Shown here in pieces: positions 42,387-58,706 of a stretch of DNA of 64,000 nt. The translations under genes were made by a program, and so were the position numbers. The stretch comes from Rhodospirillaceae bacterium (GTDB lineage: Bacteria > Pseudomonadota > Alphaproteobacteria > Rhodospirillales > Casp-alpha2), in assembly GCA_016845145.1 (NCBI GenBank), contig JAERTE010000139.1:1-64000 (forward strand). The letters run 5' to 3'. The notes beneath the pieces were generated by a model that ran no database searches, was not told the DNA's origin, and worked only from the letters and a program-made list of their open reading frames with translations. Within the stretch, counting starts at the first letter, position 1. Each line of letters begins with the position of its first letter.

Positions 42387-45161
42387 ATGGCCAACATCGT
42401 CAAGCCACGCAAGATTATCGACCGCAAAGCCCTGAAGAGTCGCTTGGACGAATTGGTGTCGTGGTCCGGCTATACTCCGAAAACGCAAGGCGCCGTGCTC
42501 GACATATTCAAGGATGCGCACCAGGCCGGTTGGGACGAAGTGCGCCGCCGTTTTGAGGAGGGTGAAGCCGACGGGCCGGAGACAACCCGCGCCATGGCCT
42601 ACCTGGTCGACCAGATCGTGCGTAGTTTGTACGAGTTCGCCACGGTCACCGTGTATCCAGCCGCCAACCCGACCATGGGCGAGCAAATGGCCTTGATGGC
42701 CACCGGCGGGTATGGCCGCGGTGAAATGGCGCCTTTCTCCGATATCGATCTCATGTTTCTGTTGCCCTACAAGCTCACGCCGCATTCCGAGCAAGTGGTG
42801 GAGTTTATTCTCTACATGCTGTGGGACTTGCGCCTGAAGGTTGGCCACGCCACGCGCTCGACCGATGAGGCCTTGCGATTGGCCGACGACGACCTGACCA
42901 TCCGTACGAGTTTGCTCGAAGCCCGCTGGCTGTCGGGCAATCAGGCGCTAGCCAAAACCTTCAAGAAACGATTTCGCGACGAGTTGGTCGACGGTACTGG
43001 ACCTGCATTTGTGGAAGCCAAACTCGGTGAGCGCGATGAGCGCCATGGCCGTATGGGCGATACCCGTTATGTGCTGGAACCCAACCTGAAAGAGGGAAAG
43101 GGCGGGCTGCGGGATTTGCAGACGCTGTTTTGGATTGCCAAGTATCTGTACCAAGCCGAAGACGCGGCGGGCTTAAAAGATGCCGGCGTTCTGACATCCG
43201 GCGATGTGCGTATCTTTGCCAAGGCAGAACACTTTTTGTGGACCGTGCGATGCCACCTGCATTATCTGGCGGGCCGGCCTGAAGAGCGGCTTACGTTCAA
43301 TGTACAAGAAGAACTCGGCCGGCGCATGGGCTACAAGGACCACGCTGGTGCACGCGGCGTCGAGCGTTTCATGAAGCACTACTTCCTAACCGCCAAGGAC
43401 GTCGGAGACCTGACCCGCATCTTGTGTGCGGTCTTGGAAGAACAGCAAACGAAAAAGCGCGGCGCATCGTCGTGGCTTTCAGGCCTCGGCTTCGGTAAGA
43501 AAGAAGTCGACGGCTTTAGCGTTGAAGGCGGCCGCGTGTCGATCAACGGCAGCCGCGAACTGCGCGCGGAACCGCTGAAAATCATGAAACTTTTTCATGC
43601 CGCGCAGCATCATGACCTGGACATCCACCCGCGTGCACTGCGGTCGGTAAAAAGCAACTTGGCCCTTGTCGGGCGGACATTGCGCGAAGACGCTGAGGCG
43701 AACCGATTGTTCGTCGAGATGCTGACCGGGCCGAATCCGAAAAAGACCTTAATGCGGTTAAACGAGGCCGGCGTGTTTGGGCGTTTCATTCCCGATTTCG
43801 GCCGTGTCGTGGCGCAAATGCAATACGACATGTACCACGTCTATACGGTCGATGAGCACACCATCCGTGCCATCGGTCTGCTGGCTGGCATTGAAACCCA
43901 GCGCTTGTTGGACGACCACCCAGTCGCCTGCGCCGTGATCAAGGAAGTGCAATCGCGCGCGGCTCTCTATGCGGCGGTGCTTCTGCACGATATCGCCAAG
44001 GGACGGGGCGGCGATCATTCGGTACTGGGCGCCGAGATCGCACTCAAACTTTGTCCGCGTCTGGGCCTCAACGAATGGGAAACGGAAACAGTGGCCTGGC
44101 TGGTGCGCCGGCATCTGTTGATGAGCAATGTTGCTTTCAAGCGCGACCTGGACGACCCCAAGGCGATCGCCGATTTTGTCGAAGAGGTGCAATCACCGGA
44201 ACGCCTGCGTTTGCTCCTGATCTTGACTGTCGTCGACATCCGCGCGGTGGGGCCAAACGTCTGGAACGCGTGGAAGGCCGGTTTGCTGCGCGAGCTTTAT
44301 TGGCGCGCGCAGGAGCTGTTGAGCGGCGGCGCGCCGCAAGCCCGCCGTGCCGAGCGGGTCGTGGGCATCAAGGCACGGTTGCTTGAGCACCTCTCTCACT
44401 GGCCCGATGGCGAAGCCGAAGCCTATCTGGAGCTCGGCCACGACGGCTATTGGCTGGGTACCGATACCGGCACTTTGGTGCACCATGCCGGCGTCGTTCA
44501 TGCGGCGCGCGAAAGCGATGAGCCGTTCCGGATTGAACTGCGTGACCTGCCCGACCGCGGCGTTGCCGAAATGACCGTCTACGCGCCGGATCATCCAGGG
44601 TTGTTCGCATCCATTGCCGGGGCCATGGCGCTCTCCAACGCCAACATCGTCGACGCCAAAGTGCATACCCTGACCGACGGCATGGCGTTGGATACCTTCG
44701 CCATCCAGGATGATGCGCGCGGCAATTTCTCGGTTGAAAGCGATTTCCCGCGTCTCAAGGCCCGTATCGCCGACGCCATCCAAGGCAAGTTGCGCCCGGC
44801 CCGCGAATTGGCGAAAGGTCAGGGTGACATGCTTGCCAGCCGCACCGATGTGTTTAAGGTGCCGCCGCGCGCGCTCATAGATAACCGCGCATCGAACACC
44901 CACACGGTCATCGAGATCAACGGCCGTGACCGGCCTGGCCTGCTGCATGATGTGACATCGGTGATTACCAGCGACGGCCTGCAGGTTTCCAGCGCGTTGA
45001 TCTCCACCTATGGCGAACGGGTGGTGGACGTCTTTTACGTAAAGGACGTATTCGGACTCAAAATCGATCGCAAAGAGCGGATCGATACCTTGCGGCAAAA
45101 ATTATTGGATGCCATCGCCGAGGACGAAGTCGCCGAAGTCCAGCAGCCTGCGGCGGAGTAG
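42387..45161 (+). CDS. glnD: Bifunctional [protein-PII] uridylyltransferase/uridylyl-removing enzyme
   Basis: 924 residues. Nucleotidyltransferase motif at about 106-125 (TGGYGRGEMAPFSDIDLMFL), PII-UTase core (LEPNLKEGKGGLRDLQTLFW), HD phosphohydrolase near 531 (LLHDIAKGRGGDHSVLGAEI), then two ACT domains (about 727 onward, VAEMTVYAPDHPGLFASIAG; and 839 onward, HTVIEINGRDRPGLLHDVTS). It modifies PII according to glutamine level. All active residues seem present. The M20 gene follows by five bases. Confidence 0.96.
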   Translation: MANIVKPRKIIDRKALKSRLDELVSWSGYTPKTQGAVLDIFKDAHQAGWDEVRRRFEEGEADGPETTRAMAYLVDQIVRSLYEFATVTVYPAANPTMGEQMALMATGGYGRGEMAPFSDIDLMFLLPYKLTPHSEQVVEFILYMLWDLRLKVGHATRSTDEALRLADDDLTIRTSLLEARWLSGNQALAKTFKKRFRDELVDGTGPAFVEAKLGERDERHGRMGDTRYVLEPNLKEGKGGLRDLQTLFWIAKYLYQAEDAAGLKDAGVLTSGDVRIFAKAEHFLWTVRCHLHYLAGRPEERLTFNVQEELGRRMGYKDHAGARGVERFMKHYFLTAKDVGDLTRILCAVLEEQQTKKRGASSWLSGLGFGKKEVDGFSVEGGRVSINGSRELRAEPLKIMKLFHAAQHHDLDIHPRALRSVKSNLALVGRTLREDAEANRLFVEMLTGPNPKKTLMRLNEAGVFGRFIPDFGRVVAQMQYDMYHVYTVDEHTIRAIGLLAGIETQRLLDDHPVACAVIKEVQSRAALYAAVLLHDIAKGRGGDHSVLGAEIALKLCPRLGLNEWETETVAWLVRRHLLMSNVAFKRDLDDPKAIADFVEEVQSPERLRLLLILTVVDIRAVGPNVWNAWKAGLLRELYWRAQELLSGGAPQARRAERVVGIKARLLEHLSHWPDGEAEAYLELGHDGYWLGTDTGTLVHHAGVVHAARESDEPFRIELRDLPDRGVAEMTVYAPDHPGLFASIAGAMALSNANIVDAKVHTLTDGMALDTFAIQDDARGNFSVESDFPRLKARIADAIQGKLRPARELAKGQGDMLASRTDVFKVPPRALIDNRASNTHTVIEINGRDRPGLLHDVTSVITSDGLQVSSALISTYGERVVDVFYVKDVFGLKIDRKERIDTLRQKLLDAIAEDEVAEVQQPAAE

Positions 45162-45165
45162 GTTC

Positions 45166-46311
45166 GTGGTGTTTCCTCTCGAGGCCTTCGACGCCGAGGC
45201 CATGGCCGCCATGATCGCCGAATGGGCGACCGTGGAGAGCCCCAGCTACGACGCCAGCGCCGTGAACGCCATGATGAATTTGGCTGAGACCACCATGCGG
45301 GAGCGCGGTGCGGCGGTGGAACGGATCTCGGTTGGCAGCGCGACGGGCGATGTCTTGAAGGCCGGCTTTCGATGGGGCAATCCAGGACCGGGTATTTTGG
45401 TGCTGGGTCATCTGGATACCGTTCATCTGGCCGGCACGATTGCCGGACCTTTGCCCGTGCGCCGCGACGGCGACAGATTGTATGGGCCCGGTGTTCTCGA
45501 CATGAAAGGCGGCATGGTGTTGGCCATCCATGCATTGGACGCCGTCATCGAAGATCGCGGCAAACTCAATTTGCCGGTAACGTTCCTATTCATATCCGAT
45601 GAAGAAATCGGCAGTCCGGCCACCCGCGCGTTGATTGAGCACGAGGCCAAGGCCAGTAAGTACGTCTTGGTGCCGGAGCCGGGCCGCCACCATGCCCTGG
45701 TGACCGGCCGCCATGCGGTGCTGCGTTACAAGCTGCATCTTTATGGCAAGCCGGCCCACGCCGCGCGGCCGGGTGGCGCGGGCCGCAGCGCCATCAGCGC
45801 CATGGCGCGGCTAATCCAGGAGGTGGAGGGGTACTCCGACCAAGATAACGAAGTCTCCTACCGCGTCGGCATCGTCGAGGGTGGTACTTTTGTCAATGTG
45901 GTCGCCACCGAATGTCACGCCGAGGTTCTATGTGTGGCACCAAGTGATCAGGCCTTCGAAAACATCCAGCGTCGCATGGAAGGCTTGCGATCGCCCGATC
46001 CCGAGGTACGCCTAGAGGTGGAGCCTGGGCCCGTACGCCCGTTGTTTCAGGCGCATGAAGGCACGCAGGACCTGTTTGGCGTGGCGGAGCGAGTTGCCAC
46101 GGAGATCGGGCTCGATCTGGAAATGGGTCAGTTCGGCGGCGGAAGCGATGGGAATTTCACCGGTGCTCTGGGTGTTCCGACGCTTGACGGTTTGGGGCCG
46201 ACAGGAGACGGTGTGCACACGAAACACGAATACATCGAGATCTCGTCATTGGTGCCGCGTGGGCGGCTATTGGCGGGATTGATGGCGGCGCTTTCGGAGC
46301 GCAACCGTTAG
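45166..46311 (+). CDS. M20 metallopeptidase, carboxypeptidase G2-like (copy 1)
   Basis: 381 residues from the GTG at 45166, with GGAG seven bases upstream and only four bases after glnD. Zinc ligands and catalytic residues: LVLGHLDTVH (about 80), YGPGVLDMKGGMVLAIHALD, FISDEEIGSPATRALIEHEA (catalytic Glu), VPEPGRHH, and a C-terminal His near GDGVHTKHEY. The middle dimerisation domain is GKPAHAARPGGAGRSAISAM. These enzymes hydrolyse N-acyl or glutamyl amide bonds. A paralogue of the same length is at 57077. It runs into the MttB gene, so both may serve one substrate. Confidence 0.9.
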   Translation: MVFPLEAFDAEAMAAMIAEWATVESPSYDASAVNAMMNLAETTMRERGAAVERISVGSATGDVLKAGFRWGNPGPGILVLGHLDTVHLAGTIAGPLPVRRDGDRLYGPGVLDMKGGMVLAIHALDAVIEDRGKLNLPVTFLFISDEEIGSPATRALIEHEAKASKYVLVPEPGRHHALVTGRHAVLRYKLHLYGKPAHAARPGGAGRSAISAMARLIQEVEGYSDQDNEVSYRVGIVEGGTFVNVVATECHAEVLCVAPSDQAFENIQRRMEGLRSPDPEVRLEVEPGPVRPLFQAHEGTQDLFGVAERVATEIGLDLEMGQFGGGSDGNFTGALGVPTLDGLGPTGDGVHTKHEYIEISSLVPRGRLLAGLMAALSERNR

Positions 46312-46322
46312 GGGGAACATAC

Positions 46323-47915
46323 ATGGGCGAAGAGGGCTCAGCCAAACCGAGACGCAGCCGAAAGCAACGGTTGAAAGAACGTGAAACCGCGCCCGAAGAG
46401 ACAAACGCCGCACCCGCCGTACTGATAGCCGACGCAACCTTGGCTCGTGCGTCAATTGATGGCCGCATCGAGCAGCCACGGTTCAATTATCTGTCGGACG
46501 CCAAGATCGAAGTTCTGAAAGCCAAATCGTTCGAACTTCTCGAGCGGCATGGCGTGTTCGTCAATCACGAGGCTGCGGTGGCGGCATTGGCCAAGGCCGG
46601 GGCCAAAGTCGACACAGACGGGCTACGCGTACGCTTTCCTGCCGAACTGGTCCGAGAAGCCCTGGCCGCTGTTCCGAAAGAGATCACATTGTACTCCAAG
46701 ACCGGCGCGCATGACCTGCGGTTGCCGCGTGCCGACGGAACCTTCCATATGCGCACCGGCACCGGCGGACACGGGTTCATTGACCCGGCCACCGGCACGC
46801 ACCGTAAGCTCACGCTTGACGATGCGGCGGCTATTGCGCGCCTGGGAGATCGCTTGCCCGAGGTTGGTTTCATCGCTCACCCGTTCGTCAACGGCGTGCC
46901 GGAAATCACATCTGATATCCACAGCTTCGCGGCGGTGGCTGGAAACTCGGAGAAACACAATTGGATCCAGCCCTATACCGATGTGAACGTCGAATACCTG
47001 ATCAAACTGGCCGGCATTGCTGCGGGCGGCGAAGCCAACTTGCGTGCCCGCCCGACGGCAAGCTGCATCGCGTGTTCGTTTACGCCGCTGGAATTGAAAC
47101 AGATGGACGTCGAAGCCATTATCCAGGCCGCCAAAGCCGGCCTGCCGATCCATGCTTGCGCGCTGCCCACGGCTGGCGGCACGGCGCCGATCACCATGGG
47201 GGCGACGGTACTGATGGCTGCTGCCGAAATTCTTGCCATCGTAACGCTGGGGCATGTCATCCAACCCGCTACACCGGTGATCGCAACACCACTTATCTTC
47301 GCGCTTGATGTGCGTACCGGACGCAGCCTGCAGTCCAGTGCCGAGGCGCTGTCGGGTATATCCATGGCGGTGCAATTGATGAAGCACGGTTTCGGGCTAA
47401 TGACTCACGCCTACGGATCGGGCTCCGACACGCCTGATCCCGACGGGCAATCCCAGGCGGAACGCGCCTTGATCTGCAACCAGGTCGCGCTGTCCGGCGC
47501 CGATGTGCTGGGTGGTGTCGGCCAATTGGAATGCGCCACCGTATTCAGCCCTACCCAGGCCGTCATGGACAACGAGCTGGGCGCCATCATGCGCACCTAT
47601 CTTTCGACGCCTGAAGTCGACGATGAGACAATTGCCTGGTCGGACATGCTTGAAGTCGCCCTAAGTGGTCATTTCCTGGCCAATGAACACACGTTGCGTC
47701 ATTGCCGGAGCAATCTTGATCCCGGCGTGTATCTTCGCCTGGCCCGCGACGCCTACGAAGATGCCGGTCGCCCGTCCGCCCAGGACAACGCACGCGAACT
47801 GGCATGCAAAATCATCGCAGAGCCACCTGCCGACGGCGCGCCCGGAGAAGATGCCCTGCGTGAAATGGCGGAGATCGTTGTCGCTGCCGACCGCCATATT
47901 CTCGGCAACGCCTAA
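46323..47915 (+). CDS. MttB-superfamily (non-pyrrolysine) methylamine/betaine:corrinoid methyltransferase
   Basis: 530 residues, uninterrupted: there is no in-frame TAG, so it belongs to the large non-pyrrolysine branch that includes the glycine-betaine, carnitine and proline-betaine methyltransferases. After a charged N-terminal extension the TIM-barrel follows (ELLERHGVFVNHEAAVAALA, MRTGTGGHGFIDPATGTHRK, CALPTAGGTAPITMGATVLM, GFGLMTHAYGSGSDTPDPDG). It moves a methyl group from a quaternary or tertiary amine to the corrinoid protein encoded next. No RamA-type activator or MtbA-type acceptor is in the window; the substrate is unknown. Confidence 0.88.
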   Translation: MGEEGSAKPRRSRKQRLKERETAPEETNAAPAVLIADATLARASIDGRIEQPRFNYLSDAKIEVLKAKSFELLERHGVFVNHEAAVAALAKAGAKVDTDGLRVRFPAELVREALAAVPKEITLYSKTGAHDLRLPRADGTFHMRTGTGGHGFIDPATGTHRKLTLDDAAAIARLGDRLPEVGFIAHPFVNGVPEITSDIHSFAAVAGNSEKHNWIQPYTDVNVEYLIKLAGIAAGGEANLRARPTASCIACSFTPLELKQMDVEAIIQAAKAGLPIHACALPTAGGTAPITMGATVLMAAAEILAIVTLGHVIQPATPVIATPLIFALDVRTGRSLQSSAEALSGISMAVQLMKHGFGLMTHAYGSGSDTPDPDGQSQAERALICNQVALSGADVLGGVGQLECATVFSPTQAVMDNELGAIMRTYLSTPEVDDETIAWSDMLEVALSGHFLANEHTLRHCRSNLDPGVYLRLARDAYEDAGRPSAQDNARELACKIIAEPPADGAPGEDALREMAEIVVAADRHILGNA

Positions 47916-47927
47916 GGGGGATGAACA

Positions 47928-48593
47928 GTGAACGACAACGATTCCCACGCGACCGATTTGGATGCGCGCCTTGATGCCATCTACGAAGCGACACTCGATT
48001 TCGATGCCGATGCTGTCGCCCGAATGGTCGCGAAAGAGGTCGAATTGGGCACCGATCTGCAAACCTTGATCAACGACGCATTGATCGCCGCCATGGAGGA
48101 ACTGGGAGAACTTTTCGCTGAGGGAGAGGTCTTCGTACCGGAACTGTTGATGGGGGCAAAGGCCATGAAGGCGGGACTTGAGATTTTACGCCCGCTCCTG
48201 ACCGCCACCGAAGCCAAGCCCCGTGGCGTGGCCCTGATGGGCACGGTGCACGGTGATTTGCATGATATTGGTAAAAATCTTGTCGGTATGATGCTGGAGG
48301 GCGGTGGATTCGAGGTGCACGACCTGGGCGTCAACGTAGCGCCCGAAGAGTTCTGGGATGCGGCGCAAGAGCTCCGGCCCGATGTCATTGGCCTTTCCGC
48401 ATTGCTGACAACCACGACACCCAATATGCGCCGTACTATCGAACTTTTCCGCGGTCGCGGTTGGAACGGCCACATCATGGTCGGCGGCGCGCCGGTGTCG
48501 AAGGACTTTGCCGCTGAAATCGGCGCCGATGACTATGCCTCCGATGCACCGGGCGGTGTGGTACTGGCGAAACGCTACGTTGCAGGCGGCTGA
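47928..48593 (+). CDS. Corrinoid (B12-binding) methyl carrier protein, MtbC/MttC-like
   Basis: 221 residues from a GTG at 47928; AAGGGGG (47914-47920) lies seven bases upstream. Residues 1-90 are the helical B12-binding cap (ALIAAMEELGELFAEGEVFV, PELLMGAKAMKAGLEIL); from about 100 the Rossmann-like domain has the DXHXXG base-off ligand motif in GTVHGDLHDIGKNLVGMMLE and GLSALLTTTTPNMRRTIELF. It takes the methyl group from the upstream MttB-type enzyme. Confidence 0.93.
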   Translation: MNDNDSHATDLDARLDAIYEATLDFDADAVARMVAKEVELGTDLQTLINDALIAAMEELGELFAEGEVFVPELLMGAKAMKAGLEILRPLLTATEAKPRGVALMGTVHGDLHDIGKNLVGMMLEGGGFEVHDLGVNVAPEEFWDAAQELRPDVIGLSALLTTTTPNMRRTIELFRGRGWNGHIMVGGAPVSKDFAAEIGADDYASDAPGGVVLAKRYVAGG

Positions 48594-48667
48594 TCTTCAG
48601 GGGGGCTTTCTGCCTGGGGGTGGGATGGTATATTGACCCGGAGTTGGACTGAACCGGGGCAGCATAC

Positions 48668-49444
48668 ATGAACTTATTCGATTTGAGCGGCAAGGTCGCC
48701 GTCATCACCGGTGGCACGCGAGGTATTGGCCGCGCGGCCGCGGAGGCAATGGCAGGAGCTGGCGCCAAGGTGGTGGTTTCGAGCCGCAAACAAGATGCCT
48801 GCGACGAGACCGCCGCCGCCATTAATGCCAATGGAGGCGAGGCCGTGGGGATCGCGTGCAACATCTCTCACGTCTCGGCGTTGGAAACCCTGGTCGCGGG
48901 CAGCATTGAGGCGTTCGGTAAGATTGACATTCTGGTCTGTAACGCTGCGGTCAACCCGTACATGGGGCCGCTGCTGGACATCGACGACGAAGCCTACGAC
49001 AAGACGCTGACCGCCAACGTTAAAAACGTACTGAAGCTCTGCGGGTTGGTGATACCGGGCATGGCGGAGCGCAAGGACGGAGCCGTGGTGATTGTATCGT
49101 CCATTGCAGCTACCAAGGGATCCATGGCCTTGGGCGCTTATGCCATTACCAAGGCCGCCGATGTGCAGATCGCCCGCAATCTTGCGGTCGAATGGGGTTC
49201 CAGCAATATCCGCGTCAACTGTGTGCTGCCCGGTCTGGTGAAAACCGATATGGCGCGCGCGCTATGGGAAGATCCGGTGCGCCACGAGCGCGCATTGGCC
49301 GGTTACCCCATCGGCCGGCTGGGCGAGCCGGAAGATTTAGCCGGCGCGATTTTATTTTTGGCGTCACCCGCGGCCACCTGGATTACGGGCCAGGCCATTC
49401 CCGTCGACGGCGGCGCCACCATCGCCGGCGGCGGCTATAGTTAA
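48668..49444 (+). CDS. Short-chain dehydrogenase/reductase (SDR)
   Basis: 258 residues, classical SDR. NAD(P) motif VITGGTRGIGRAAAEAMAGA, NAAVNPYMGP, catalytic Ser in VIVSSIAATKGSMALG and YAITKAADVQ (YxxxK). The C-terminus (DLAGAILFLASPAATWITGQ, AIPVDGGATIAGGGYS) is like 3-oxoacyl reductases of the FabG type. It lies between the corrinoid gene and an acyl-CoA dehydrogenase, likely part of an acyl-CoA route. Substrate unknown. Confidence 0.9.
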   Translation: MNLFDLSGKVAVITGGTRGIGRAAAEAMAGAGAKVVVSSRKQDACDETAAAINANGGEAVGIACNISHVSALETLVAGSIEAFGKIDILVCNAAVNPYMGPLLDIDDEAYDKTLTANVKNVLKLCGLVIPGMAERKDGAVVIVSSIAATKGSMALGAYAITKAADVQIARNLAVEWGSSNIRVNCVLPGLVKTDMARALWEDPVRHERALAGYPIGRLGEPEDLAGAILFLASPAATWITGQAIPVDGGATIAGGGYS

Positions 49445-49468
49445 GATATTTTCTGAAAGGTTTGAACA

Positions 49469-50695
49469 ATGGATTTGACTCCGACACCACGTGGCGAAGA
49501 ACTGAAGGCCCGTGTGGAAGCTTTCATGGACGAGCATGTTTATCCGAACGAGCGCGTTTATTACGATCAACTGGACGAAGCAGACACGCGCTGGACGGTG
49601 CCGCCAATTCTGGAAGAGTTGAAGGCCAAAGCACAGGCTGAAGGGCTGTGGAACCTGTTTCTGCCGGAGAGCGATTTGGGTGCCGGGCTCTCGAATCTGG
49701 AATACGCGCCGCTCTGTGAGGTCATGGGGCGGGTGCATTGGGCACCGGAAGTGTTCAATTGCTCCGCACCCGACACCGGCAACATGGAAACGCTCGAACG
49801 TTACGGCACGCCGGAACAAAAAGATCGCTGGCTCAGGCCATTGCTGGACGGCGAAATCCGCTCAGCCTTCGCCATGACTGAGCCGAAAGTCGCTTCATCG
49901 GATGCCACCAATATCGAGACCTCTATCGTCCGCGATGGCGACGACTATGTCATCAACGGCCATAAGTGGTGGACATCGGGCATTGGTGACCCGCATTGCA
50001 AAATCCTTATTGTCATGGGCAAAACCGATCCGGACGCTCACAAGTACACCCAGCAATCGATGATCCTGGTGCCGCGTGACACACCCGGCATCACCGTGAC
50101 GCGCATGCTCAACGTCATGGGCTTCGACGATGCGCCGCACGGCCACGGCGAGGTGATTTTCGACAACGTGCGGGTGCCGGCTGAAAATATGCTGCTGGGC
50201 GAAGGGCGCGGGTTCGAGATTGCGCAAGGCCGCTTGGGCCCCGGGCGGATTCACCATTGCATGCGGATTATCGGTGTCGCCGAGCGCGCGTTGGAGATGA
50301 TGTGCCAGCGCGCCACCGAGCGTACGGCCTTCGGCAAGGCCTTGGCCGACCAAGGCGTGACGCATGAGCGTATCGCCGAGAGCCGCATCCAAATTGAGAT
50401 GTGCCGGCTTTTGACCCTCAAGGCTGCCTACATGATGGATACGGTCGGCAACAAGGAAGCCCGCCAAGAGATCGCCATGATTAAAGTGGCGGCGCCAAAT
50501 ATGGCGCTCGACGTCATTGACCGGGCCATGCAATTGCACGGCGGCGGCGCCATGAGCCAGGAATTCATGCTGTCGTATATGTGGGCGCGGATGCGTGCGC
50601 TGAGGTTTGCGGATGGTCCCGACGAGGTGCACCGCCAGCAAATTGCGCGCTTGGAGCTCAGGCGTCAGGTTGGGTGGCCGCCTAGGAAGTCGTAG
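49469..50695 (+). CDS. Acyl-CoA dehydrogenase (ACAD10/11-like)
   Basis: 408 residues. Landmarks: [80 protein letters not shown] and [16 protein letters not shown]. The pattern [16 protein letters not shown] with a long N-terminus resembles the ACAD10/ACAD11 class rather than short-chain enzymes. Coupled in context with an APH-type kinase gene (52161) and an acyl-CoA synthetase (53347). Confidence 0.9.
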
Positions 50696-50743
50696 CGGCG
50701 AAACTTCACTTGAGCTGACTCAAGTCGCTTCCAATGTGGCGGG

Positions 50744-50917
50744 TTATTCAGCTGCCTTTTTGTCGGCGGCCTCTTTCTCGAGGCGCAACGCCCGCAGACG
50801 TTTCAATTGGTCGGCTTTTTCCTTGCGGAGTTTTTCTTTTTCCTTGAGCGCTTTTTCGTTCTTCTTTTGGGTCGCCGTGAATTGGGCTTCAGCTTTCGAG
50901 CGTACTGTCCGCATCAT
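50744..50917 (-). CDS. Small basic coiled-coil protein (57 residues)
   Basis: Start at the ATG ending at 50917 (MMRTVRSKAEAQFTATQKKN), with an AAAGGCAG ribosome site in the leader; an open frame continues back to 50977 without one. The remainder is a single charged helix (KALKEKEKLRKEKADQLKRL then RALRLEKEAADKKAAE). Similar short coiled coils of unknown function occur in alphaproteobacteria. Lies convergent with the acyl-CoA dehydrogenase. Confidence 0.6.
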   Translation of the reverse strand: MMRTVRSKAEAQFTATQKKNEKALKEKEKLRKEKADQLKRLRALRLEKEAADKKAAE

Positions 50918-51053
50918 ATAAACTGCCTTTCGACCGGGTTGTTCCAGGGTGTTGCAAAATCTGATGCGTATGCCCACGGGCCCAGCGTGTGGGCTGGAGC
51001 CTTGGCAACAGAAACGGAGACCGCCCCAAGGATTGGAGCGGTCCCATGGTCAA

Positions 51054-51263
51054 TTAGTCAAGCAGCGCCAAGTCTTCGGCGGAGGACTTGCCGTTTTGTC
51101 CAGCTTTCAGCTCGTACGACACTTTTTGTCCTTCGTTGAGTGAATGCAATCCGGCGCGTTCAACCGCTGAAATATGAACGAACGCATCGTTGGAGCCGTC
51201 TTCGGGCTCGATGAATCCGTAACCTTTGGCGGTGTTGAACCATTTTACAGTACCAGTCGTCAT
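51054..51263 (-). CDS. CspA-family cold-shock protein
   Basis: 69 residues. RNP1 and RNP2 motifs: GTVKWFNTAKGYGFIEPEDG and NDAFVHISAVERAG. Single-stranded nucleic-acid chaperone. Start at the ATG ending at 51263, with AGAGGAAC upstream in the leader; a longer frame to 51338 is within the leader. A GC-rich hairpin (about 51035-51055) follows the gene without a long U run. Confidence 0.95.
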   Translation of the reverse strand: MTTGTVKWFNTAKGYGFIEPEDGSNDAFVHISAVERAGLHSLNEGQKVSYELKAGQNGKSSAEDLALLD

Positions 51264-51695
51264 AGTTAGTTCCTCTAACAGATGGGGGGTATACGTCACG
51301 CCCGTCGTTAAGTGCAGGCGCAACTTGCAAACGATCACATTGTCAGGAGAAAACTAAGCTAAACGGCGTACCGGCTGACCAGGTAACACCAAACAAATGT
51401 AACACGTACTTTGAATATTTAGACGACATCCGAGAAATGTCAATGATATCGCCGATTAGGGATAGTATAAAATGGGTATGTTTTAAAAAATAAAAAAACC
51501 ACGCAATAAACTTATAAATAATATCTATTTAAAACAACGGTATTAATTTTCACAAGATCAGTAATTTACAGTCGTGAAATTGAAAATATAGGACCGTTCA
51601 CGAAAATTCATTTTAGAATGATTTATGAGGATGCCACTTGGTTGCCATGTGTCCTTATGCGCGCCCACAGTGCCCGGTCGAGAGCAACGGCATCA
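51264..51695. other. AT-rich intergenic region upstream of the cold-shock gene
   Basis: Bases about 51420-51620 are strikingly AT-rich for this genome, with runs such as ttttaaaaaataaaaaaacc and ataaataatatctatttaaa. No gene is seen; the ORFs are short. A long leader is usual for cspA-type genes, and the AT-rich block may hold promoters or an H-NS-like/IHF-like target. It also lies beyond the end of the response-regulator gene on the same strand. Confidence 0.45.
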
Positions 51696-52058
51696 TCAAT
51701 GGCTGAGGCTCGAAACCTTTTCGATAAAGCGCGTCGGGTTGATTGGCTTGGTTTCATAGGCTGCCGCGCCAACTGTGAAGGCGTGGGTTCGGTCTTCTTG
51801 GGTGATGGCGGCGCCGCTTAGCGCCATAATCGGAATATCGCTGGTCAGTGAATCGAGCTTGAGTTCTTCGATCAACTCGAACCCGGTCATGCCCGGCATG
51901 TAGATGTCGGTAATGATCAGGTTCGGGACATCCCGTTTTGCGGCGGCAATGCCGTCTTCGGAGGAATTGGCGGTCGAAACGTCATAGCCGGAATGACCCA
52001 GAAAGGCGCTCATCAGTGTTAACACCGAGGGGTCGTCGTCGACGATCAAGATGTTCAT
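51696..52058 (-). CDS. Single-domain response regulator
   Basis: 120 residues, only a receiver domain: MNILIVDDDPSVLTLMSAFL (acid pair), phospho-Asp51 in NLIITDIYMPGMTGFEL, Thr/Ser in IMALSGAAI and Lys in YETKPINPTRF. There is no output domain, so it acts by protein contact, as in CheY- or DivK-like relays. No kinase adjoins it; the orphan hybrid kinase at 40188 is the only one in the window. Confidence 0.9.
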   Translation of the reverse strand: MNILIVDDDPSVLTLMSAFLGHSGYDVSTANSSEDGIAAAKRDVPNLIITDIYMPGMTGFELIEELKLDSLTSDIPIMALSGAAITQEDRTHAFTVGAAAYETKPINPTRFIEKVSSLSH

Positions 52059-52160
52059 GGCTTTCGTCCTTTATGGCAAAACGAAATTGTTTCAGCACAA
52101 CCCTAGGGCGCCGACCTGACACGAACATGACCGTTTCACGAAAATTCTTGTGAGCTAAAT

Positions 52161-53234
52161 TTACGCGTCTTTGTCCAACAATGCGCAGGCGACGTCCGCT
52201 AATTCGCGGCAGCGCTCTTTGCGCATCAGCGCCGCCGGCGACGCCGCATTGCCCTTGAGCGCGCGGAAATAGACGCCTTGCGTGATCGCCGCCAGCCGAA
52301 ACAGCGACAGCACCAGATAAAAGGTCCAATCGGCATCCAAATCACGTCCGGCACGTTCGGCGTAGGCCGCCAGATACTCGGCCTCGGACGGAATGCCTTG
52401 GGTCGCGCCGTCCAGGGCAACAAGCGAGCCCCTGGCTGGGTCTTCCATGTGGTAGGGCAGGCAATTGTAAGCCAGGTCCGACAGCGGGTCGCCAAGCGTC
52501 GCCAGTTCCCAATCGACAATCGCCAGCACTTCGGGCCGCGTTGGGTGGAAGATCATATTCTCCAACCGGAAATCACCGTGCACGACGGTGGTCACGTCGC
52601 TGGCCGGCAGGTTTTTCGGTAACCATGTCATCAGGCGCTCCATGGTTGCCAGTTCGTCAGTCTTGGAAGCGACATACTGCTCCGACCATCGCTTGATCTG
52701 ACGTCCGACATAGCCGCCGATGCGGCCGAAACTGCTCAAGCCCGCGTCCTCGATATCGACGCTATGAAGCCGCGCCAGCGTGTCATTCATGGCTTCGTAG
52801 ATTGCCGTGCGCTCAGACGCTTCCATGCCCGGCAGGCGCATATCGCGAAACACCCGGCCGTCAGCGAACCCCATGATGTAGAACGCCTGCCCGATCACCG
52901 CCTCGTCCTCACACAGTAAAATCGGTTTTGCCACCGGCAATCCCATCTTTCGCATGGCGGTGATGGCGCGGAACTCGCGCTCGACGGCATGCGCGGATGG
53001 AAGCAGCTTGCCGGGCGGTTTCTTGCGTAAGACATATCGCTCACCGCCGCCGTCGGTCAGCACAAACGTCGGGTTCGACATGCCGCCTTGGCATTGGCCA
53101 ATGTCGAGAGGGGGCGTGAACCCGGGGACGTCGCGGGCCATCAAGGCCTGCAAGGCTTCGAGCGAAAACTGATGCTGGGCCATGACCGGTGCGGTTTCGG
53201 TGGTCGCCGTGGTGGGCGTAACTTGCGTAGACAT
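52161..53234 (-). CDS. Aminoglycoside-phosphotransferase-like kinase (ACAD10/11 or LvaA type)
   Basis: 357 residues from the ATG ending at 53234; an extension to 53273 is open. Kinase motifs: GGMSNPTFVLTDGGGERYVL (glycine loop and Lys), Brenner motif VVHGDFRLENMIFHPTRPEV, metal-binding IVDWELATLGDPLSDLAYNC. This branch of the APH family is fused to, or lies next to, acyl-CoA dehydrogenases and phosphorylates 4-hydroxyacyl-CoA in 4-hydroxy-acid catabolism (LvaA, ACAD10/11). Here the dehydrogenase is nearby (49469) and an acyl-CoA synthetase is divergent (53347), which fits that role. Confidence 0.85.
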   Translation of the reverse strand: MSTQVTPTTATTETAPVMAQHQFSLEALQALMARDVPGFTPPLDIGQCQGGMSNPTFVLTDGGGERYVLRKKPPGKLLPSAHAVEREFRAITAMRKMGLPVAKPILLCEDEAVIGQAFYIMGFADGRVFRDMRLPGMEASERTAIYEAMNDTLARLHSVDIEDAGLSSFGRIGGYVGRQIKRWSEQYVASKTDELATMERLMTWLPKNLPASDVTTVVHGDFRLENMIFHPTRPEVLAIVDWELATLGDPLSDLAYNCLPYHMEDPARGSLVALDGATQGIPSEAEYLAAYAERAGRDLDADWTFYLVLSLFRLAAITQGVYFRALKGNAASPAALMRKERCRELADVACALLDKDA

Positions 53235-53346
53235 CCCGCTATTGAACCGGCAAACCCGCCCGGCTGCAACCATGATGCATAGGCTTTCGAAAAATTCACA
53301 CCGGGGTTTTGCTTTCCGGGCGGGCGAGCCTTAAAGTCGCCCGGCC

Positions 53347-54885
53347 ATGATGCCCATTGATCACTTTTTCCGCGCCGCCAACCTATGGCCCGAGCGCACT
53401 GCCGTCGAAGCCGACCTCAACCCCCATGGGAGCGACGAGGATCCGGTTTTTCGTCTGACTTATGGCGAACTGGCGAGGCGCGTGAACGCCCTGGCCGCCG
53501 CTTTCCAGAGCATCGACCCAGAGCCGCAAAGCCGCGTCGGCATTTGCGCCTACAATTCGGTCGAGCATCTGGTGGCGTGGCTTGCCGCGTTTGCGGCTGG
53601 AAAAGTTTGGGTGCCTCTGAACCCCCGCAACGGCAAGGATGAGCTCAACCGCATCGAAGATGTCACCACACCATCTATCTTGGTCGTCGACGGCGACTGC
53701 TTGGACAAAATCGACCCAAGCGACGCGACGACAGTGCTCGGCAAACCCGTAGCGGGCGGATTTGACGGCCCGGGGCTTTGGGATCTGATCGACCTGCACG
53801 ACGGCGAGACACCTGTCCGCCACGATTTGGCGCTTGACGATCTGCAAGCGATTAAGTTCACCGGCGGCTCGTCCGGTGTGCCGAAAGGCGTCATGCAGAC
53901 GTACCGTGTCTGGAACACGTGCATTGCCTCCATGCTTTCCAGCTTCGAATTCGACGCCGACGACCGCCATCTGCTGGCGGCCCCCATGACCCATGGCGCC
54001 AACACCATGATCATGCCGATCTTTGCCAAAGGCGGCACCCAGCTGTTCATGGGCAAATCCAATCCCGTCGCCATCATGGATGCCATCGAACGTATGCGCG
54101 CCACGTCGCTGTTCGTGCCGCCCACCGTGATCTATATGATGATGGCGGACGACAGCTTCGCTTCCCACGATTTCTCGTCGCTGCGTCATTTCATCGCCGG
54201 CGGTGCGGCCATGCGCCCCGACACGGTGGCCAAGGCAATGCCGATGCTGAACAATGCGCTGGAAACCTGTTACGGCCAAACCGAAGCCCCGCAGATCGCC
54301 ATTTGCATGCGCGCTCGCGATTGGCGCGACACACGCAATCAGGCATCCACCGGCCTCGCCACGGCGTTGACGCGCGTCGGCGTAATGGACCCCGATGGCA
54401 ACGTTCTGGGACCCGGCGAGACCGGCGAGATCGTGCTCAAGGGCGACTTGGTGATGAAGGGCTATTACCAGATGCCCGACAAAACGGCTGAAACCATCAT
54501 CGACGGCTGGCTGCATACGGGCGATATCGGCATCATCGACGAGCGCGGCTATGTGTTCATCAAGGATCGCATCCGCGACGTGGTCGTCACCGGCGGCTTC
54601 AACGTCTATCCCAATGATGTGGAGGCGGTGCTGGGCCAGCACCCGATGGTCAAGGAATGCGTGGTTTTCGGCCTGCCGGACGACAAATGGGGCGAGGCCG
54701 TGCACGCCGCCGTCGAGATTCACAAAGGTGAAAACGCCAGCGAGCAAGACATCATCGAATTCGTCAAAAGCCGGCTCGATTCGGTGAAAGCGCCGAAGCG
54801 AGTGCATATTGTCGGCGAGTTGCCGCGGAGCCCCGTCGGCAAAGTGTTGCGCCGCGAGGCCAAAACCCTGTTTGCAGAAACCTGA
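53347..54885 (+). CDS. AMP-dependent acyl-CoA synthetase/ligase
   Basis: 512 residues. Family motifs: P-loop FTGGSSGVPKGVMQTYRVWN, A5-like ETCYGQTEAPQI, A7-A8 WLHTGDIGIIDERGYVFIKD and RIRDVVVTGGFNVYPNDVEA, and the C-terminal catalytic Lys in ELPRSPVGKVLRREAK. It forms acyl-adenylate and then the CoA thioester. Divergent from the APH-like kinase gene and followed by a citryl-CoA-lyase-like gene. Substrate could be a fatty, hydroxy or aromatic acid. Confidence 0.93.
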   Translation: MMPIDHFFRAANLWPERTAVEADLNPHGSDEDPVFRLTYGELARRVNALAAAFQSIDPEPQSRVGICAYNSVEHLVAWLAAFAAGKVWVPLNPRNGKDELNRIEDVTTPSILVVDGDCLDKIDPSDATTVLGKPVAGGFDGPGLWDLIDLHDGETPVRHDLALDDLQAIKFTGGSSGVPKGVMQTYRVWNTCIASMLSSFEFDADDRHLLAAPMTHGANTMIMPIFAKGGTQLFMGKSNPVAIMDAIERMRATSLFVPPTVIYMMMADDSFASHDFSSLRHFIAGGAAMRPDTVAKAMPMLNNALETCYGQTEAPQIAICMRARDWRDTRNQASTGLATALTRVGVMDPDGNVLGPGETGEIVLKGDLVMKGYYQMPDKTAETIIDGWLHTGDIGIIDERGYVFIKDRIRDVVVTGGFNVYPNDVEAVLGQHPMVKECVVFGLPDDKWGEAVHAAVEIHKGENASEQDIIEFVKSRLDSVKAPKRVHIVGELPRSPVGKVLRREAKTLFAET

Positions 54886-57076: not shown

Positions 57077-58222
57077 TTACGTCAGCGTGCGCAGCAACCC
57101 GTACATGAGCTTGGCGCGCTGCACCAGGGATGAGTAATAGATGAACTCATTGTAGCTGTGCGCGCCATGCCCGTCGGCGCCCAGACCATCGAGTGTCGGG
57201 ATACCGAGCGCGCCGGTGAAGTTGCCGTCGGAGCCGCCGCCGGTTTTCAGATCCTGCAGATCAAACCCGATCTCAGCCGCGATACCTTTGGCGTGTTGGA
57301 ACAAACTCTCGACGCCTTCGAACTTGTCATAGGGTGGACGATCGACTCCACCTTCCACTTCGACCACACAGTCGGGATCGAAGGGCTCAAGATTGTCGAA
57401 AAAATCCAAAATCCTTTGCTGTGCTTCCACATGCGGCACCCGCAGGTCGACCGTCACCTCGCATTCGTGCGGCACAACGTTGGTGGTGGTGCCGCCTGAG
57501 ATGGTGCCGACCGAACAGGTGGTTTCGTTGTCATAGTCGGTGAGTTCCTCCATACGGAGGATTTGGCGGGCCATTTCCTTGATCGCACTGCGGCCATCCA
57601 TGTGGCGCGAACCGGCATGCGACGGGCGCCCTGTGACTTTTACGGTGTACTGTAGCCGACCATTGCGGGCGGTGACGATTTTGCCGCCTTCGCGCGCCGG
57701 TTCGGTGACCAGCACGTATTTGTTCTGCTTCGCCAACTCGACGATCATGTCACGCGAGGTGGGGCTGCCGACTTCTTCCTCGGGCACGTACATGAACGTC
57801 ACCGGCAGCGGCGTTTCTTCGTTGGAACGCACGATGTGGCGCATGGCATAGAACGCGATATGCGCGCCGGCCTTCATGTCATAGATGCCAGGGCCAAATA
57901 CCTTGTCGTCTTCGCGCCGGATTTTCATGCGGTCGTCTTTAGTGCCGATCGGATGCACGGTGTCCAGATGACTGAGCACCAGAATGCCCGGCCCGTCGCC
58001 GCCCCATGGCGTGCGGGCTGTCAGGATATCGCCAAAACCGTCGCGGCCCGGTTTGCGGTTTACGTGCAGGCCCAGCACCGCCAAGCCTTCTTCCACGTGA
58101 TCGACCATATGGTTGACGGCATCGGCATTATGGCTCGGGCTTTCGATATCGACCCAGCGCAGCACGCCTTCGAGAATTTCATCCGCATCGAAATCCGGCG
58201 CGTTTTTGACGTCCTCGCTCAT
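57077..58222 (-). CDS. M20 metallopeptidase, carboxypeptidase G2-like (copy 2)
   Basis: 381 residues from the ATG ending at 58222 with GAGGGGG upstream; a longer frame to 58399 overlaps the next gene. Zinc motifs: LVLSHLDTVHPIGTKDD, FGPGIYDMKAGAHIAFYAM, YVPEEEVGSPTSRDM, VTEPAREGG and C-terminal GHGAHSYNEF. Dimer domain GRPSHAGSRHMDGRSAIKEM. It is the paralogue of the gene at 45166, same length, similar in order throughout. Substrate unknown. Confidence 0.92.
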   Translation of the reverse strand: MSEDVKNAPDFDADEILEGVLRWVDIESPSHNADAVNHMVDHVEEGLAVLGLHVNRKPGRDGFGDILTARTPWGGDGPGILVLSHLDTVHPIGTKDDRMKIRREDDKVFGPGIYDMKAGAHIAFYAMRHIVRSNEETPLPVTFMYVPEEEVGSPTSRDMIVELAKQNKYVLVTEPAREGGKIVTARNGRLQYTVKVTGRPSHAGSRHMDGRSAIKEMARQILRMEELTDYDNETTCSVGTISGGTTTNVVPHECEVTVDLRVPHVEAQQRILDFFDNLEPFDPDCVVEVEGGVDRPPYDKFEGVESLFQHAKGIAAEIGFDLQDLKTGGGSDGNFTGALGIPTLDGLGADGHGAHSYNEFIYYSSLVQRAKLMYGLLRTLT

Positions 58223-58247
58223 AAGTTCCCCCTCGGTTGCAATATGT

Positions 58248-58706
58248 TTATTCCTCGACTTCTGCCGCACCGCGCTTGGGCAACAGAAAATGTACATCTG
58301 CCGTGGCGACCGGGTCGTCCCACGCCGTTTGCCAAGCGCGGACCCGCACATTGGCAACGCGCGCGCCCTGGCGCACGATCTGCCCGCTGGCCAACACATC
58401 TTTCGGCGCCACCGGACGCAGGTAGTTGGCCGAGATATTGACGATTTTGGGTAAATGGTTGCGCCGTACGTGGTGCAGGAGATGCATAAAGGCCGTGTGC
58501 TCCAGCAACGCGCCGATCAGGCCGCCGTGAAAAATATTGGCCGTGTAATTGCCGATGTGATCATCGCGGTAGGGCAGCCGTGCGACCAACATGTCGTCTT
58601 CCCAGTACGATTGCACGCCCATGAAAGTGGCATAAGGCACGAGCCCGACGACTTCCGTCAGCCGTCCTTCGTCACGCAGTTTGGCGATGTCGTCATTCAA
58701 GCTCAT
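58248..58706 (-). CDS. PaaI-type thioesterase (hotdog fold)
   Basis: 152 residues. The hotdog pattern is YTANIFHGGLIGALLEHTAF and NISANYLRPVAPKDVLASGQ; the GG(L)xxxxE-type active-site region is present. Hydrolyses acyl-CoA, often phenylacetyl- or hydroxyphenyl-CoA in catabolic settings. Its ATG overlaps the stop of the next thioesterase gene (ATGA), so the two are coupled. Confidence 0.88.
   Translation of the reverse strand: MSLNDDIAKLRDEGRLTEVVGLVPYATFMGVQSYWEDDMLVARLPYRDDHIGNYTANIFHGGLIGALLEHTAFMHLLHHVRRNHLPKIVNISANYLRPVAPKDVLASGQIVRQGARVANVRVRAWQTAWDDPVATADVHFLLPKRGAAEVEE

Follow-up and report, generated by a model that had tools for sequence, protein, structure and literature searches.

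An MttB-family protein of a rare clade, paired with its own corrinoid protein, in a Rhodospirillaceae genome: a probable methyltransferase unit beside an M20 hydrolase

This study concerned two adjacent genes (46323-48593) in a 64,000-nucleotide stretch of DNA, here called the window, from a Rhodospirillaceae bacterium (assembly GCA_016845145.1, contig JAERTE010000139.1, positions 1 to 64,000). They encode an MttB-family protein and a corrinoid protein, and probably form a two-gene corrinoid methyltransferase unit, the methyl donor of which would be a compound other than glycine betaine, and which would draw on shared RamA and pterin enzymes; the M20 hydrolase gene directly upstream would be a mere neighbour. 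What is new here is the clade to which the MttB protein belongs: by the sequences compared, it is rare, has a long stem, and lies apart from both MtgB and pyrrolysine MttB.

The MttB-family protein and its clade

A preliminary description of this DNA had proposed an MttB-family protein without an amber codon and with its own corrinoid partner, and this was borne out. The protein of 530 aa matched PF06253 over residues 50-501 (185.1 bits against a cut-off of 25), no in-frame stop precedes its TAA, and the adjacent gene encodes a PF02607 and PF02310 protein. By alignment, the pyrrolysine position is occupied by Gly367, and the score against the pyrrolysine equivalog TIGR02369 (284.5 bits) missed the cut-off of 525, as did those of all seven paralogues in the same genome (219-353 bits).

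Clade members beyond the window are L022 (= G159), L023, L024, G065, G374, and G382. The MttB tree comprised 27 sequences, with PDB entries represented by their aligned stretches only and the partial L024 protein dropped. The six full-length members of the clade part from all other sequences with an ultrafast bootstrap (UFBoot) value of 100, their stem being 1.17 substitutions per site long. A second group (support 100) was made up of MtgB (9yce; its exact place supported at 66), the S. meliloti protein 4yyc, and the paralogues C117a, C145a, C145b, C112, and C10, while pyrrolysine MttB formed a third (support 92). A comparison with MtgB, MtcB, MtpB, and MtyB had been suggested earlier; the tree answers it for MtgB, from which the clade is separate, the sequences of MtpB, MtcB, MtyB, and MthB lying outside the tree.

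MtgB of Desulfitobacterium hafniense aligns with the window protein over 426 residues (123 bits). Its docking-predicted glycine betaine residues are Y94, N199, R309, and H345 (PMC6855144; this and the other papers are cited here from parts of their texts). None of the four is kept in the window protein, which has T147, C251, H362, and Gly instead, and the six full-length members carry T, C (T in G374), H, and G at these sites. Four of the seven paralogues (C117a, C145b, C112, C10) retain all four residues, and C145a retains three. On the tree and the residues together, an identity as MtgB was rejected. That the window protein is nonetheless another glycine betaine enzyme of the aerobic MtgBCD kind is very unlikely: such enzymes have a precedent in aerobic alphaproteobacteria (PMC12478193), and the clade member L023 lies near a convergent gene for a DMGDH-like DAO/GCV_T protein, but the separate clade and the substituted residues speak against it, as does the corrinoid partner, which the tree does not place with the corrinoid proteins of C117 and C10.

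The clade also differs in its conserved residues. Counting as private invariants those shared with at most one of the 21 other alignment rows, 62 were found, and 11 of them are histidine or cysteine (H76, H82, H150, H186, H277, H311, H362, C248, C279, C404, C461). In three other groups none of 28 such residues is His or Cys, and in a group of two members 4 of 70 are; these comparison groups differ in diversity, and more diverse controls yield fewer invariants. H362 takes the position of MtgB R309, and C279 aligns two residues ahead of the place of Met249 of MttB, which is located in the active site (PMC9842639). The clade might, then, not consist of N-demethylases at all, and a His/Cys-rich, possibly metal-assisted pocket might remove an O- or S-linked methyl group for the dedicated corrinoid protein in these oxygen-respiring alphaproteobacteria. 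The corrinoid proteins of the clade would fit this in grouping, weakly (0.787), with a set in which L013 and L127 adjoin URO-D-like genes (as read). Set against it are the control groups, the greater diversity of which leaves them fewer invariants, the ordinary total of 17 His and 7 Cys, which is the same in paralogue C117b, and the residues H76, H82, and C461, which have no known place in the putative pocket; we regard this explanation as unlikely. A structure prediction of the window protein from four sequences was unusable (mean predicted local distance difference test score, pLDDT, 41.6) and was kept out of fold searches.

The corrinoid partner and the enzymes encoded elsewhere

The corrinoid protein (221 aa) has a DLHDIG sequence matching DxHxxG, and its best solved relative was 1y80 (174.8 bits). 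Both NCBIfam MtgC models scored under their cut-offs (177 against 370 bits for NF047996, and 164 against 310 bits). The corrinoid tree set five MttB-adjacent proteins against 18 others, namely those from all eight other places in the same genome and 10 of 15 other relative rows, G268 among them, leaving out the weaker rows L133, L136, L138, L139, and L140 as well as R. pomeroyi MtgC. The five formed one clade (local support 0.996), apart from the 18.

Among 296 other genomes of the order, two had a window-type MttB gene (E ≤ 1e-50); so did two among 384 of the class (1e-80), and none did among 397 of the phylum (1e-60). These are four matches in 1,077 other genomes, with the three samples overlapping and some genomes drawn twice. 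Exact peptide patterns recovered at least three clade loci from a collection of 84,980 species. A corrinoid gene directly follows the MttB gene in five of the six assessable loci (window, L022, L023, G374, G382); in G065 a corrinoid match was absent from the MttB contig at 1e-10, and the L024 contig ends inside the MttB gene, so that it could not be assessed for a partner. The M20 gene precedes MttB in two of six assessable loci (L023, with only 612 bases upstream, is uncounted here), and the other neighbours vary: in G065 they are FAD oxidoreductases and a dipeptide-type ABC transporter, while G382 has a cysteine-synthase-like gene, G374 has NorB/NorC-like genes, and L024 has ABC-transporter genes (all names by reading, not tested with hidden Markov models, HMMs). 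The unit of inheritance is therefore the MttB gene together with the corrinoid gene.

No activator or methyl acceptor had been seen in the preliminary description, which holds for the stretch it covered and fails for the genome. The search for an activator that it called for, the lack of which would have refuted the assignment, turned up two RACo/RamA-type genes in the assembly (5.46 Mb, 151 contigs, 98.71% complete), along with eight PF06253 genes and nine PF02607 places. A PF00809 pterin-binding protein adjoins each activase. One of the two clusters, C122, includes in addition a URO-D/B12 fusion and a PF02219 (MTHFR) protein matched at 31 bits; the other, C112, encodes a corrinoid and a URO-D protein as well as a MetF-like candidate (L030:9051-9980) that had no Pfam match. 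RamA-type genes were present in all four other searched genomes having a window-type MttB (G159, G065, G374, G382), and in G159 the window-type gene is the only intact PF06253 gene. The COX1 and FixO proteins of the genome fit an oxygen-respiring host.

In the proposed unit, the methyltransferase (MT1) would bind a small methylated compound, not glycine betaine, in the mouth of its barrel, and Co(I) of the dedicated corrinoid protein would take the methyl group, with the DLHDIG histidine, by homology, as the likely lower ligand. An MtgD-like pterin-binding enzyme encoded elsewhere would pass the methyl group to tetrahydrofolate, for one-carbon oxidation, and the RamA-type activase encoded beside the pterin enzyme would rescue oxidised Co(II). 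Beyond gene content, we infer these steps, including methyl transfer itself, the MtgD and RamA partnership, and a substrate other than glycine betaine, from the MtgBCD (PMC12478193) and MthBCA (PMC12155760) systems.

Some further features of these genomes may be recorded. The other PF06253 match of G159 is an MttB remnant of about 100 codons with two stops (G159:C6:42904-43212). In the window genome, DAO/GCV_T proteins (DMGDH-like, ~800 aa) adjoin four of the seven other MttB genes (L033, L034, L035, L039), and another (L036) lies beside an Oxidored_FMN protein. A URO-D/B12-binding fusion (L029:4970-6844, minus strand), the layout of which we take to be CmuA-like, lies close to ABC-transporter-like genes and to genes for a pterin-binding protein and a RamA-type activase.

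The M20 hydrolase and the acyl-CoA genes

The three genes for the M20, MttB-family, and corrinoid proteins are intact, run in one direction, and lie where first described (Table 1), and the hydrolase is CPG2-like and directly upstream of MttB. It matched Peptidase_M20 of Pfam (103 bits) and, barely above the cut-off of 386, NF005678 (387.9 bits), and its best solved relative was carboxypeptidase G2 (139.5 bits). The strings GHLD, LDMKGG, DEE, EPG, and KHEY are present and presumably represent metal-binding or catalytic motifs. Its GTG start lies four bases past the glnD stop (window 45159-45168), 11 bases separate it from MttB, and the gap between MttB and the corrinoid gene is 12 bases. The GC content of the MttB (0.609) and corrinoid (0.590) genes is similar to that of their neighbours. 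A promoter and terminator scan gave results barely over shuffled controls (3 against a mean of 2.3; 8 against a mean of 5.6).

Table 1. Genes of the methyltransferase pair and its surroundings in the window
Feature	Position	Strand	Basis or remark
M20 hydrolase (CPG2-like)	45166..46311	+	GTG start; regarded as lying outside the methyltransferase unit
MttB-superfamily methyltransferase (MT1) without pyrrolysine, orphan clade (predicted)	46323..47915	+	PF06253, TIGR02369, tree
Corrinoid protein, dedicated, DLHDIG motif	47928..48593	+	PF02607, PF02310, NF047996, 1y80
glnD homologue (neighbour)	42387..45161	+	name by reading, not HMM-tested
Short-chain dehydrogenase/reductase (SDR) oxidoreductase (neighbouring acyl-CoA module)	48668..49444	+	adh_short_C2, 208 bits
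Acyl-CoA dehydrogenase (ACAD), ACAD11 type (neighbouring module)	49469..50695	+	4hr3, 8v3u, 2wbi matches
APH-fold kinase, ACAD11 kinase-domain type (neighbouring module)	52161..53273	-	3dxp, 8v3v matches
Acyl-CoA ligase (neighbouring module)	53347..54885	+	NCBIfam ligase models

From this arrangement it had been suggested that the M20 enzyme splits an amide or ester of a quaternary amine and that the MttB protein then demethylates the released amine. The short spacing on one strand would favour such a route, as would the same order in the congener L022/G159, but the comparison with relatives does not sustain the functional link. Homologues of the M20 protein with 63-83% identity occur in G268, G238, G134, G159, and G171, and in G134, G171, and G238 the gene directly follows glnD with no MttB gene beside it; G134 and G238 had one high-scoring PF06253 gene apiece, of another type, and G171 had none. 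By tblastn, no M20 homologue was found in the MttB loci of G065, G374, G382, and L024, i.e. in four of the six assessable loci.

The most direct comparison is with G268, a genome of the same genus (SDR 94% and ACAD 97% identical), which keeps the flanks and lacks the pair. Its contig L109 carries the 3' end of the M20 gene (64 codons) and its stop, followed by the SDR, the ACAD, a divergent kinase, and the ligase. Neither an MttB nor a corrinoid gene lies between M20 and SDR, the M20 stop being followed directly by the SDR leader. Another G268 contig, overlapping by 16 bases, breaks off within this M20 gene, and the only two PF06253 genes of this genome are both of other types. Since the more distant congener L022/G159 (SDR 74%, ACAD 82%) has the pair in the same place with M20 upstream, the simplest history would be that the MttB-corrinoid pair was present in the ancestor of the genus and lost in G268. 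AGGGG(G) stretches at 46311-46325 and 48594-48612 border the pair, and could have served a deletion in G268.

Several arrangements indicate that M20 genes accompany acyl-CoA genes independently of MttB: G134 has a run of SDR, another M20, and ACAD genes with a kinase alongside, and an M20 gene precedes the ACAD gene in G271, G171, and G276. The M20 hydrolase of the window accordingly appears, as far as gene order and homology can tell, to be a neighbour by position and not a pathway partner, and a joint M20-MttB route is distinctly unlikely. Neither a pathway link of this kind nor zinc or histidine in a pyrrolysine-free MttB was reported in the titles and abstract openings of the papers listed by searches aimed at them.

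Three side observations concern M20 genes more generally. The order glnD-M20 is kept in G134, G171, G238, G268, and L022; an M20 hydrolase gene adjoins an ACAD gene in several genomes of the family; and the window itself encodes a second M20 hydrolase (57077-58399, minus strand), which shares 44% identity with the first and has many relatives at about 45% in the family.

Downstream of the pair, the SDR, ACAD, kinase, and ligase genes (48668-54885) resemble, by their homologies, a split ACAD11/Lva-type 4-hydroxyacyl-CoA module. The ACAD matched 4hr3 (529.7 bits), and ACAD11 (8v3u, 482.5 bits; 2wbi, 475.4 bits), the next match being 1ukw at 154.8 bits. The kinase matched 3dxp (365 bits) and ACAD11 (8v3v, 302 bits), and the best NCBIfam match of the ligase was NF004837 (363 bits, under its cut-off of 476). 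A role for the kinase gene (52161-53273) as an MthK-like choline kinase was set aside, its product being closest to 3dxp and the ACAD11 kinase domain. The pair could conceivably serve this module, e.g. by demethylating a 4-methoxy or 4-amino acid on its way into the SDR, kinase, and ACAD steps. In the window and L022 (two of the three genus genomes seen) its position, with M20 on one side and the module on the other, would agree with this; G268 has the module but not the pair, however, and tblastn searches for SDR and ACAD homologues in the MttB loci of G374, G382, G065, L023, and L024 found none, which makes such a role most improbable.

A methyltransferase unit independent of the M20 enzyme and specific for another compound than glycine betaine remains the explanation we favour, and the following points weigh against it. 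The window protein is only 22-30% identical to the other MttB proteins of its genome and may serve a different function. Two of the seven paralogues (C117b, C148) likewise keep none of the MtgB residues, so their loss is not peculiar to the clade. RamA-type genes are also present in three of four searched genomes without a window-type MttB (G268, G134, G171), and their presence is therefore not specific. The window genome is a metagenome-assembled genome (MAG) with 7.19% contamination; synteny of its C112 RamA cluster with that of the congener G159 (13 matched proteins, 54-91% identity) argues against contamination there. G268 is itself a MAG-like draft, 83% complete, and the operon-like M20 spacing, with M20 kept upstream in L022, counts on the same side.

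Comparison with known systems

The preliminary description had regarded a pyrrolysine-free MttB system as notable in an aerobe, a view overtaken in 2025 by the publication of MtgBCD from aerobic Ruegeria pomeroyi (PMC12478193). There, according to the parts of that paper used here, knock-outs show that MtgC and MtgD are needed for growth on glycine betaine, the assignment of MtgB came from homology and proteomics, and genomes carry up to seven PF06253 genes, which may serve other compounds. By the tests made here, the window pair would fit the last prediction, yet not as an MtgB. Aerobic corrinoid demethylation of the MtgBCD kind is, then, already in print, and the window pair adds a rare, diverged branch. 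Few members of the MttB superfamily have a known substrate, MthB being called the sixth (PMC12155760). The pair offers a clean test case, with a compact MT1 and its own corrinoid protein, one genome (G159) in which it is the sole intact member, and another (G268) in which it is missing with both flanks kept, and it could reveal whether compounds other than amines are within reach of the superfamily. One operon can mislead, as the case also illustrates: it was comparison across relatives that removed the M20 hydrolase from the picture.

Chloromethane CdmB, which came into question through a mention of the MttB superfamily in its paper, was rejected as a relative, as it belongs to the UroD superfamily according to that paper (PMC13222342, in part), and no substrate lead came from the parts consulted of papers on an aerobic sponge microbiome (PMC9999580) and on MtyB (PMC8604678).

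The R. pomeroyi MtgBCD system is alike in having a PF06253 MT1, a corrinoid protein, a pterin-binding MT2, RamA, and several PF06253 genes in an aerobic alphaproteobacterium (PMC12478193), while the window differs in the clade of its MT1, the pocket residues, the dedicated adjacent corrinoid protein, and the M20, SDR, and ACAD surroundings. D. hafniense MtgB (2qne/9yce) belongs to the same superfamily and can be aligned, but the window protein has none of its four docking-predicted residues and falls in a separate clade. In the Eubacterium limosum MthB/MthK phosphocholine system, an MttB member likewise has an APH/choline-kinase-type gene nearby (PMC12155760), whereas the window kinase is of the ACAD11 kinase-domain type and accompanies the acyl-CoA genes even in the absence of the MttB pair. 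The LvaACDE and ACAD10-ACAD11 pathway resembles the flank in its kinase, unusual ACAD, SDR, and CoA ligase (PMC11342911); the flank in the window differs from it in having an M20 gene and, in two of the three genus genomes, the MttB-corrinoid pair between M20 and SDR.

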